Positions 20,517 to 49,499 of a stretch of DNA of 49,611 nt are shown one piece after another. Position 1 is the stretch's first letter, and the number at the start of each line of letters is the position of its first letter. The stretch is from positions 1 through 49,611 of the forward strand of contig JAGVYI010000019.1 in NCBI GenBank assembly GCA_018303365.1, in the 5' to 3' direction. The notes below the pieces were generated by a model. The model searched no databases, was not told the origin of the DNA, and was given only the letters and a program-made list of their open reading frames with translations. Both the position numbers and the translations under genes were made by a program. Source of the DNA: Candidatus Woesearchaeota archaeon (lineage in GTDB: Archaea; Nanobdellota; Nanobdellia; SCGC-AAA011-G17; JACPNG01).

Positions 20517-22100
20517 GCATTATACTTGGAATACATGACTCAGCATTTGATTCTGGAGCAGCTGTATCTGTAGACGGAGAGATAAAAGCAGCAATCCATG
20601 AGGAAAGAACAAGCAGAATAAAGCACGAAGGCGGGTTTCCTAAAACATCAATCTCGGCAACGCTCAAGGCAGCAAACATAAGCCCTAAAGAAGTGGAAGT
20701 AATAGCTGTTGGAAATGTGCACGCAGAAGTACCATTGCAGCTCATGCAAGGATTTACCCAAATATCTCCACTACTCAACCCATTAAAATCAAGAAAAGAT
20801 TATTTGAAGATTTACTCCTACGAAAAATATATGGATTTCTATAGAAAGCATCTTTGGTTTAGTAAGATAAACTCAAAACTTTCGGGAAAGCTGCTCGAGA
20901 ATATGTTGAAAAAGGCAGGAATAAATGCAAGACTAGAAAGGGTAGATCACCACCTAAATCACGCAGCCTCGACATTCTATTCAAGCGGATTCAACAAATG
21001 TCTCATAATAACCGCCGATGCAAGAGGAGATGGCATCTCAACAACAGTAAATATTGGTACGATAAAAGATGGGATAAAAAGAATAGCAGCAACAAAGCAG
21101 GAAAACTCGATAGGACATTTCTACGGATGCATAACAGAATGTTTGGATTTCAAATACGGGGATGGAGAAGGAAAAACAGAAGCCCTTGCAGCATACGGAA
21201 AAGAATCTCCTATATATCAAAAACTTAAAAAATATATCAAGGTAAAAGACCTTAAAATAGAAGCGAATATGTATCCTTACCAAAATAAAAAATGTTGCTC
21301 TAGCAGGAGGCCTGTTTCTAAATGTTAAACTCAATCAGAGAATATTGCAAATCCCTGAAGTAAAGGACATTCATATTCACCCCGCAGCAGGGGATGGAGG
21401 GATTCCAACAGGAGCCGCACTAAACATAGCTGCAAGGCAAAAAAAAATAAAACCAAGAAGATGGAAGAGTGCATATCTTGGAAATGAATATAGAAACGAA
21501 CAAATAAAGCAAAGTCTGGAAAAGACAAAATACAAGTTTGAATACATTGAAGATATAGCGGGATACGTTGGAGAAGAAATACTGCCAAAAGGGCATATCA
21601 TTGGATGGTTCCAAGGAAGAATGGAATATGGACCACGAGCCTTAGGAAACAGAAGCATCCTGATAACTCCAAAAGATGAAAAATCCCCAGAAAAGTTAAG
21701 AGCAACAATAAAAAAAAGACCAGCATTCCAGCCATTTTGCCCAAGTATAGTAAAAGAATCTCAGAAAAAGTATGTAAAAAATCCAAAAAGAGTGGAAACA
21801 CCATTCATGATTCTTACCTTAGATGCAACAGAGAAAATGAAAGAGGAAGCTCCAGCAGTTGTATTCAAAGACATGAGTGTAAGAGTACAGACTGTAGAAA
21901 AGCAGGTAAATCCGTTATATCATAGGGTAATAAAGTCGTTTGGGAAAAAAACAGGGACACCGATACTTCTTAACACTTCATTCAACAGATCTGGCCAAGC
22001 AATAGTATACACCCCAGAACAGGCAATCTACGATATAAAGGCAGGACAGCTGGATTTTCTTATAATGGGGAACTATCTTGTTCATGGAAAAAGAAAATAA
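20513..22100 (+). pseudogene. NodU/CmcH-type carbamoyltransferase, broken into two frames (20513-21328 and 21345-22100)
   Basis: N-part GIHDSAFDSGAAVSVDGEIKAAIHEERTSRIKHEGGFP, HHLNHAASTF; C-part NVALAGGLFLNVKLNQRI...HPAAGDGGIPTGAAL, GRMEYGPRALGNRSI. Frame changes at about 21285-21300. Confidence 0.8.
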
Positions 22101-45927: not shown

Positions 45928-46002
45928 GCTCCGGTAGTGTAGTTCGGTCAATCACTTCGGCCTCTCGAGCCGACAACCCGAGTTCAAATCTCGGCCGGAG
46001 CA
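45928..46002 (+). tRNA. tRNA-Glu (CTC)
   Basis: GCTCCGG/CCGGAGC acceptor, TCGGC-CTCTCGA-GCCGA anticodon arm. Confidence 0.93.
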
Positions 46003-46221: not shown

Positions 46222-47646
46222 ATGAAAAACACATTTTATATCACAACAGCAATAGACTATGTAAATGCGCCTCCGCACATAGGCCATGCATTTGAAAAAA
46301 CAGTAGCCGATGCAATTGCCCGCTGGCACAGGTTGAATGGAAAAGATGTTTTCTTTTTGACAGGGGTTGATGAAAACGCTCAAAAAAATGTCCAGGCAGC
46401 AGAAAAAGCAGGTATTCCGGTTAAAGAATTCATAGACAAAACCACTTTTCAATTTTTAAACCTCTGTGAGAAACTCAATCTTTCATATTCAAAGTTCATT
46501 AGAACAACAGCAAAGGACCATAGGATTGTCGTACAGAGAATCCTAAAAAAGGTTATAGAAAAAGGGGACATTTACAAAGGAATATATGAAGGACTCTATT
46601 GCGTTGGTTGCGAGGCATACTATACAGAAAAAGAACTATCTAACGGAAAATGCAAAGAGCATGATGCAAAACCTGAATTAAGAAAAGAAGAAGCATATTT
46701 TTTCAGATTAAGCAAGTACAAAACGCAGCTTCTAAAAATTATTCCAAAGTATGCCATTCCAAAAACAAGGGTAAACGAAGTATTAACAAGAATTAAGGAA
46801 GACGGACTTAAGGATGTCTGTATTAGCAGAAAAGGAGCAAAATGGGGCATAGACTTTCCAGAGGATAAAGACTTTAAGATTTGGGTATGGATTGACGCCT
46901 TAATCAACTATATTTCAGGTCTAAAAGATAAAGAAGAAGTATACTGGCCTGCACAACTTCACATTATAGGAAAAGGGATTAATTGGTTTCATTCCGTTAT
47001 ATGGCCGGCATTCTTAATATCGGCAGGATATAAACTGCCAGAAAAGCTGTTAATTCATGGATATCTCAATCTTAGAGGCAAAAAAATATCAAAATCCCTT
47101 GGAAATACAATAAATCCATTAGAGCTGCTAAATAAATACCAAGCAGATGCAGTAAGGTATTCATTACTAAGATGCTCTGTATTTGAAGACTCAGATTATT
47201 CAGAAGAAATTTTAATAGAGCGCCATAATGGTGAACTTGCAAACAAACTCGGTAATTTAGTAAGCAGGGTTTCAGCGTTGGCAGAAAGGCATGGTTTAGA
47301 AAAATCAACACCGCTAAAAATAGACAAGACTTTAGAAAATGTAGAGTCTGAATTTAACAACCTAGAGTTAGACAAAGCCTTAAAGGAGATATTTGAGTTC
47401 ATAGATTACTGTAATGAGTATGTTCAAGACAAAAAGCCATGGGAAACAAAAGATAAAAAAGTGCTCTGGCAGCTGGCAAATGCAATTAAAGACATAACAA
47501 TTCTGCTATCCCCGTTTATTCCCGAAACCTCTGAAAAGATAGCAAGAATATTCAATTTTAAAATTTCAATAAAAGAGTTAAAAACTCCATTGAAAATAAC
47601 CAAGATTAAAAAATCAAGTATTTTGTTTGAAAAGGTGTTAGAGTAA
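46222..47646 (+). CDS. metG: Methionyl-tRNA synthetase, short form
   Basis: YITTAIDYVNAPPHIGHA (HIGH), CVGCEAYYTEKELSNGKCKEH, WVWIDALINYISG, GKKISKSLGN (KMSKS). Confidence 0.95.
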   Translation: MKNTFYITTAIDYVNAPPHIGHAFEKTVADAIARWHRLNGKDVFFLTGVDENAQKNVQAAEKAGIPVKEFIDKTTFQFLNLCEKLNLSYSKFIRTTAKDHRIVVQRILKKVIEKGDIYKGIYEGLYCVGCEAYYTEKELSNGKCKEHDAKPELRKEEAYFFRLSKYKTQLLKIIPKYAIPKTRVNEVLTRIKEDGLKDVCISRKGAKWGIDFPEDKDFKIWVWIDALINYISGLKDKEEVYWPAQLHIIGKGINWFHSVIWPAFLISAGYKLPEKLLIHGYLNLRGKKISKSLGNTINPLELLNKYQADAVRYSLLRCSVFEDSDYSEEILIERHNGELANKLGNLVSRVSALAERHGLEKSTPLKIDKTLENVESEFNNLELDKALKEIFEFIDYCNEYVQDKKPWETKDKKVLWQLANAIKDITILLSPFIPETSEKIARIFNFKISIKELKTPLKITKIKKSSILFEKVLE

Positions 47647-49112: not shown

Positions 49113-49230
49113 TGGGCCCGCTCGGATTCGAACCGAGGACCTCCCGATGACTGACTTAGCGCTATCAGTCGGCTAAGCTAAACTAACAAAGGCAAGGTTA
49201 CGTGCTCCAACCAGACTAAGCTACGGGCCC
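49113..49230 (-). tRNA. tRNA-Ile (GAT) with two introns (49173-49201, 29 nt; 49149-49162, 14 nt)
   Basis: Spliced: GGGCCCG TA GCTT AGTCTGGTTG GAGC A CCCGA CTGATAA TCGGG AGGTC CTCGG TTCGAAT CCGAG CGGGCCC A = 75 nt canonical cloverleaf; both junctions sit in BHB motifs. Confidence 0.9.
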
Positions 49231-49234
49231 GAAA

Positions 49235-49376
49235 CGCCTGGGGTAGGACTCGAACCTACGACCGCACGGTCTCTGTCAGCTGATAACAGCGTCACAGATA
49301 AAGAGAGGGTTCCTCTCATCATCGCGTGTGCTCTACCAATTGCCCCACACAAAAAGTGTGTCTGAGCTACCCAGGC
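49235..49376 (-). tRNA. tRNA-Asn (GTT) with three introns (22, 34 and 13 nt)
   Basis: Spliced: GCCTGGG TA GCTC AGTTGGTA GAGC A CACGG CTGTTAA CCGTG CGGTC GTAGG TTCGAGT CCTAC CCCAGGC G = 73 nt canonical cloverleaf; each junction fits NN^N bulges separated by a 4-bp helix. Confidence 0.9.
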
Positions 49377-49499
49377 AATAAAAAGTTAGAACCAAAACCC
49401 AGCTTTAAAAACATTTCTGAAAAATATGGGGTTTAAAATTATGGGGACTTCAAATCAAACCCAAAATGTTCTTTCAAAATCAATTTCAGGAATTCAACT

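Follow-up and report, generated by a model that had tools for sequence, protein, structure and literature searches.

The evidence assembled here leans towards the view that Woesearchaeota hold tRNA genes more heavily interrupted than any described so far, with up to five introns predicted in tRNA-Asn, and that these introns are removed by a plain alpha-only endonuclease without specificity-broadening loops. The kind of splicing endonuclease that a lineage possesses is held to determine how many introns its tRNA genes have and where they lie. The gene at the centre of this analysis, a tRNA-Asn(GTT) gene with three introns, lies in the window, i.e. the whole 49,611-nt stretch of DNA that was analysed. 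It is very probably a working cellular gene, its introns being predicted from the sequence to be removed by an endonuclease that is, in this organism, apparently alpha-only.

The tRNA-Asn gene and its three introns

The tRNA-Asn gene occupies positions 49235..49376 of the minus strand (142 nt, 73 nt when spliced) and consists of four exon pieces and three short introns, all on the same strand. Exon 1 (49362..49376; tRNA positions 1-15) is followed by intron 1 (49340..49361, 22 nt), located in the D-loop at 15/16, bounded by GCTC-AG^A and GGGC-AA^T and equipped with an inner helix, CACAC/GTGTG. Between exon 2 (49325..49339; positions 16-30) and exon 3 (49284..49290; positions 31-37, containing the anticodon GTT) lies intron 2 (49291..49324, 34 nt), which splits the anticodon stem at 30/31, has the boundaries CACA-CG^C and TGTG-AC^G and forms a long inner hairpin. 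Intron 3 (49271..49283, 13 nt; CTGT-TA^T and ACAG-AG^A) sits at the canonical site 37/38 and precedes exon 4 (49235..49270; positions 38-73), which ends with the discriminator G73. These parts were delimited by a BHB solver, which enumerates bulge-helix-bulge cuts and scores the spliced cloverleaf, with no positions supplied; its best answer is identical, base for base, to the three introns of the original prediction.

The motif geometry claimed for the introns is present in all three of them: two 3-nt bulges are separated by a 4-bp helix with 4/4 central pairs, and the cut follows the second bulge base. The full canonical hBHBh' arrangement is absent from each, so that all are relaxed forms; the outer helices of introns 1 and 2 are only 2 bp long, and intron 3 lacks the inner helix (bulge-helix-loop). 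Removal of the introns gives GCCTGGGTAGCTCAGTTGGTAGAGCACACGGCTGTTAACCGTGCGGTCGTAGGTTCGAGTCCTACCCCAGGCG, the ideal 73-nt tRNA-Asn that had been foreseen, with all 21 stem pairs (7/4/5/5), no stem mismatch and the conserved bases T8, A14, GG18-19, T-loop TTCGAGT and G73 beside the anticodon GTT. Neither ARAGORN nor Rfam called this gene, as is expected from the insertion in the D-loop together with two further insertions.

A TATA-like box, TTTTAAA (49404..49410, minus strand), is situated 34 to 28 nt upstream of the 5' end of tRNA-Asn, and comparable boxes precede several other tRNA genes of the same genome at a distance of about 27-34 nt. Only 4 nt downstream of tRNA-Asn, on the same strand, the solver placed a tRNA-Ile(GAT) gene (49113..49230; 75 nt when spliced, 7/4/5/5 pairs) with two introns, one of 29 nt at 27/28 (49201-49173) and one of 14 nt at 37/38 (49162-49149). 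When introns were allowed, ARAGORN mis-called this gene as tRNA-Thr(TGT). Elsewhere in the window, the methionyl-tRNA synthetase gene (46222-47646, plus strand) is closest to Pacearchaeota (73%), with only 51% and 63% to two genomes of the host's own family, and was probably transferred horizontally, judging from these similarities.

Two tests addressed chance. A splice-aware tRNA-Asn profile scored 96.6 at the gene; its highest score was 44.5 among 152 other chunks of the window and 75.1 among the genome's other tRNA loci. In the second test, the letters within each intron were shuffled and the boundaries fitted anew with equal freedom (n=150): the summed BHB score had a mean of 11.2 (SD 1.8, maximum 17.5), and 0/150 shuffles reached the observed 26.8. 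A chance origin of the intron motifs in tRNA-Asn is thus excluded.

Interrupted tRNA genes in the host genome and its relatives

The host, suspected in the original prediction to be DPANN-like, does belong to DPANN, class Nanoarchaeia, within a Woesearchaeota family. It is an archaeon of a very small kind that depends on other organisms. Its assembly comprises 702 kb in 22 contigs, is 91% complete and yielded 33 tRNA-like matches, none of those read having a GTT anticodon. An intronless tRNA-Asn elsewhere in the genome had been named as the sign that the present copy is a decayed duplicate; no second tRNA-Asn was found in this assembly by a pattern search covering intronless copies as well as copies whose introns at 30/31 and 37/38 are no longer than about 30 nt. 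At least ten tRNA genes of the host are interrupted, three of them by more than one intron. Besides tRNA-Asn and tRNA-Ile(GAT), at least eight others are affected: the solver placed introns in tRNA-Thr(TGT) at 30/31, tRNA-Thr(CGT) at 22/23, tRNA-Asp at 21/22, tRNA-Ala(GGC) and tRNA-Leu(CAA) each at 37/38, and two, at 19/20 and 37/38, in tRNA-Ile(TAT) (contig C13, 51317-51437). The last anticodon is uncommon in archaea and known from Nanoarchaeum equitans and Korarchaeum. ARAGORN added introns in tRNA-Tyr and tRNA-Arg(TCG); the solver gave no clean solution for these two or for tRNA-Ala(TGC), and intron positions are not claimed there.

Several other tRNA loci of the host deserve mention. The tRNA-Ala(TGC) gene (contig C9, region 21471-21527) directly follows the 3' end of 16S rRNA and seems to contain an insertion of some 30-35 nt in its T-loop. 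For a tRNA-Leu (contig C10, 28175-28258) ARAGORN gives the anticodon AAG; A34 is unusual in archaea. A tRNA-Glu(TTC) body on contig C13 (about 52899-52957) lacks its first 14 nt or so. No match to the 5' piece occurs upstream within the DNA read, and the assembly has that 5' sequence only once, in the intact tRNA-Glu(CTC) at position 45928 of the window; the truncated gene may be a split gene, a decayed copy or an assembly gap.

Conservation in related genomes, proposed earlier as a check, was found: the same three sites recur across the order with diverged intron sequences. We scanned 104 genomes for tRNA-Asn, which was resolved in several dozen members of the host's order. Intron number there ranges from 0 to 5 and about half of the genes are intronless, figures that describe resolved genes and are no census, the tRNA-Asn of some relatives having been left out. 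One to five introns interrupt 37 resolved genes (the host gene included; one, from genome G137, lies outside the order), at the sites 8/9, 15/16, 16/17, 17/18, 27/28, 30/31, 37/38, 43/44, 48/49, 53/54, 59/60 and 70/71. The three sites of the host gene are the commonest, 37/38 being used in 28 genes, 30/31 in 20 and 15/16 in 16, host included. In two relatives, fits with introns at 65/66 did not withstand the pairing test, and these introns are assigned to 70/71.

Pairing of the central helix is retained at these sites in spite of sequence divergence, with 104/112 pairs at 37/38, 79/80 at 30/31 and 64/64 at 15/16. When the 3' strand is shifted by 1 to 3 columns, the pairs fall to at most 58, 39 and 32, respectively; at 30/31, shifting the 5' strand by two leaves 73/80 paired versus 79/80, which represents a competing register. 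The exon/intron helix at 30/31 varies among species as CACA/TGTG, CACC/GGTG, CACG/CGTG and CGCG/CGCG, with compensatory changes from A-U to G-C at position 26 and from A-U to G-C or C-G at position 28. Permutation of the partners gave P = 5e-5, a value to be read with the caution that related species are not independent. Covariation at 30/31 is the strongest evidence for structural recognition of the introns.

Four introns are predicted in tRNA-Asn of six relatives (G020, G048, G067, G084, G005 and G027), of which G005 belongs to the same family as the host; the tRNA-Asn of G048 is also present in JACPIN010000010.1 (Woesearchaeota). Two relatives have five predicted introns. Those of G052 lie at 8/9, 30/31, 37/38, 48/49 and 70/71, with full central pairing at all five sites and 4/5 pairs in the T-stem, and those of G031 at 15/16, 30/31, 37/38, 43/44 and 53/54, the central helix at 43/44 being weak in G031 and likewise in G067. 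The maximum for an archaeal tRNA gene has been stated in reviews as three introns (PMC8450103, PMC4033280). Five predicted introns exceed this number; the record is provisional, resting on comparison with open-access literature.

The splicing endonuclease and the predicted removal of the introns

The host encodes one PF01974 protein of about 190 amino acids (contig C5, 10472-11041) with the catalytic Tyr/His/Lys residues (FRVY...DHAKW...STRK), whose closest PDB structure is the catalytic alpha subunit of N. equitans (3iey_A); an RtcB ligase is encoded in the genome as well. PF01974 matches were found in 56/60 genomes. The insertion of the ARMAN type (ASL) is absent from the alignment of the host alpha with that of ARMAN-2. 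As to the CSL, judged by length alone, the loop region of the host alpha is about as long as that of METJA (Methanocaldococcus jannaschii) alpha. In G014, a relative with a 100% complete genome and seemingly one intron in tRNA-Asn (16/17), no PF01974 endonuclease was found; its gene may be missing or a different enzyme may be in use.

Published work assigns only canonical BHB motifs to enzymes of the alpha4 type and associates relaxed introns with (alpha-beta)2 or loop-bearing enzymes (PMC4033280, PMC4090602, PMC12397907), so that cleavage of the present introns by such an enzyme is no matter of course. The clade is therefore a possible exception to the rule of enzyme-intron co-evolution: either the alpha enzyme acts on a wider range of motifs than the rule provides for, or a partner has escaped notice. 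In the latter case a heteromeric or otherwise broadened enzyme would splice the functional gene, with a beta subunit or accessory factor that is too diverged to be recognised or is encoded in the missing part of the genome. The nearest solved relative of the host alpha does work with a beta subunit in N. equitans, and relaxed motifs elsewhere accompany (alpha-beta)2 or epsilon2 enzymes (PMC4033280, PMC12397907). However, a second PF01974 match is absent in 59/60 genomes, several of them 95-100% complete, and in the single genome with two copies (G042, 6% contamination) the score of the extra match resembles that of a second alpha. Searching 12 genomes under relaxed conditions produced no credible homologue beyond alpha, although the same query picks up, in PDB, the beta subunits known from N. 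equitans and crenarchaea. With neither a beta subunit nor fused units found in the 60-genome PF01974 search and the relaxed search of 12, we hold a heteromeric or broadened enzyme to be rather unlikely.

Other readings concern the tRNA-Asn gene itself. An incompleteness of 9% leaves room for a second copy, and the interrupted gene could in principle be a decayed duplicate with unremoved insertions, while the true gene would belong to the sequence that was not assembled; stems without mismatch, intact conserved loop bases and promoter box, and interruption of the same sites in many relatives make this very improbable. The notion that the insertions are remnants of self-splicing or mobile elements can draw on group I introns in rRNA genes of Woesearchaeota (PMC6125680), yet each intron has BHB geometry and no Rfam intron family matches the window. 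A group I core would not fit into introns of 13-34 nt. The group I reading is refuted by these lengths, and self-splicing or mobile remnants in general deserve next to no credence. Hardly more conceivable than these is an artefact of assembly or binning: 22 contigs and incompleteness suggest a metagenome assembly and the gene lies near a contig end, but the same sites occur in dozens of other genomes, where diverged introns retain complementarity.

For the working, spliced gene that we prefer, a course of events can be proposed from the DNA, on which all our statements about splicing are based. The tRNA-Asn would be transcribed from the TATA-like promoter, probably jointly with the two-intron tRNA-Ile(GAT). 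The tRNA splicing endonuclease would cut the paired 3-nt bulges flanking the 4-bp exon-intron helix, and RtcB would then probably join the exons. A simple, probably homotetrameric alpha enzyme would thereby handle relaxed motifs at several sites. Introns 1 and 2 are expected to form local hairpins with the exon. Because intron 2 interrupts the anticodon stem, which constitutes the outer helix of intron 3, the structure implies that intron 2 must be out before the canonical 37/38 site is complete. In the energy model, the central helix of intron 3 forms with a probability of 0.05 in the full precursor, which rises to about 0.63 when intron 2 alone is removed; with introns 1 and 2 both removed it is near zero, the helix not being part of the favoured fold. 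Removal in the order 2, then 3, then 1 would be the simplest reading of these modelled probabilities. For intron 2, RNAfold gives the BHB register a probability of only 0.01 and another pairing is more stable, so that adoption of the BHB form would depend on enzyme binding or tertiary contacts.

Comparison with known systems and significance

The original prediction regarded multi-intron tRNAs at noncanonical sites as mainly a matter of Thermoproteales-like archaea and their presence in a DPANN host as worthy of note. This framing needs one correction, as multi-intron tRNAs of DPANN archaea have already been listed for N. equitans and ARMAN-1/2 (PMC4033280, Table 1). Thermoproteales (Pyrobaculum and others; Sugahara 2008, cited in PMC8450103) likewise have several BHB-type introns per gene, canonical and non-canonical, with some ordered removal; no more than three introns per gene are reported for them, and their enzymes are of the (alpha-beta)2 type, whereas here up to five are predicted and alpha only was found. 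N. equitans is a DPANN archaeon with multi-intron tRNAs (PMC4033280, Table 1). Its alpha subunit (3iey_A) is the nearest solved one to that of the host, and both have tRNA-Ile(UAU); N. equitans differs in having split tRNAs and a beta subunit, which was not found here, as well as a 6-residue insertion in alpha that the host alpha lacks. ARMAN-1/2 (Micrarchaeota, epsilon2) are also ultra-small archaea with non-canonical intron sites and relaxed motifs, but their enzyme consists of three fused units and has a specific loop of 11 residues (PMC12397907), in contrast to the single-unit host enzyme without insertion. In Nanoarchaeota Nst1, too, a catalytic alpha was identified and beta was not found (PMC3655853); there, however, only 2/41 tRNAs bear introns, compared with at least ten interrupted genes in the host, three with more than one intron.

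The gene in the window taken alone is one more case of a multi-intron tRNA gene in archaea, a kind previously listed for N. equitans and ARMAN. The notable feature is the scale of interruption in the clade, with up to five predicted introns per tRNA gene, together with the accompanying enzyme: new, once relatives and enzyme are considered, are predicted intron numbers above the stated maximum and an enzyme type unexpected for them. There is also a practical side, as the tRNA finders run here miss the gene and DPANN genomes may consequently seem to be without essential tRNAs. In this uncultured order tRNA introns at about a dozen sites, up to five in one gene, coincide with only that enzyme architecture which is said to cut strict canonical motifs. 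A single small recombinant protein and a single synthetic RNA would suffice to put the relation between enzyme and introns to a direct test. Should such an enzyme alone indeed remove the introns, this would run against the accepted rule by which relaxed introns at multiple sites need an (alpha-beta)2 or loop-bearing enzyme.
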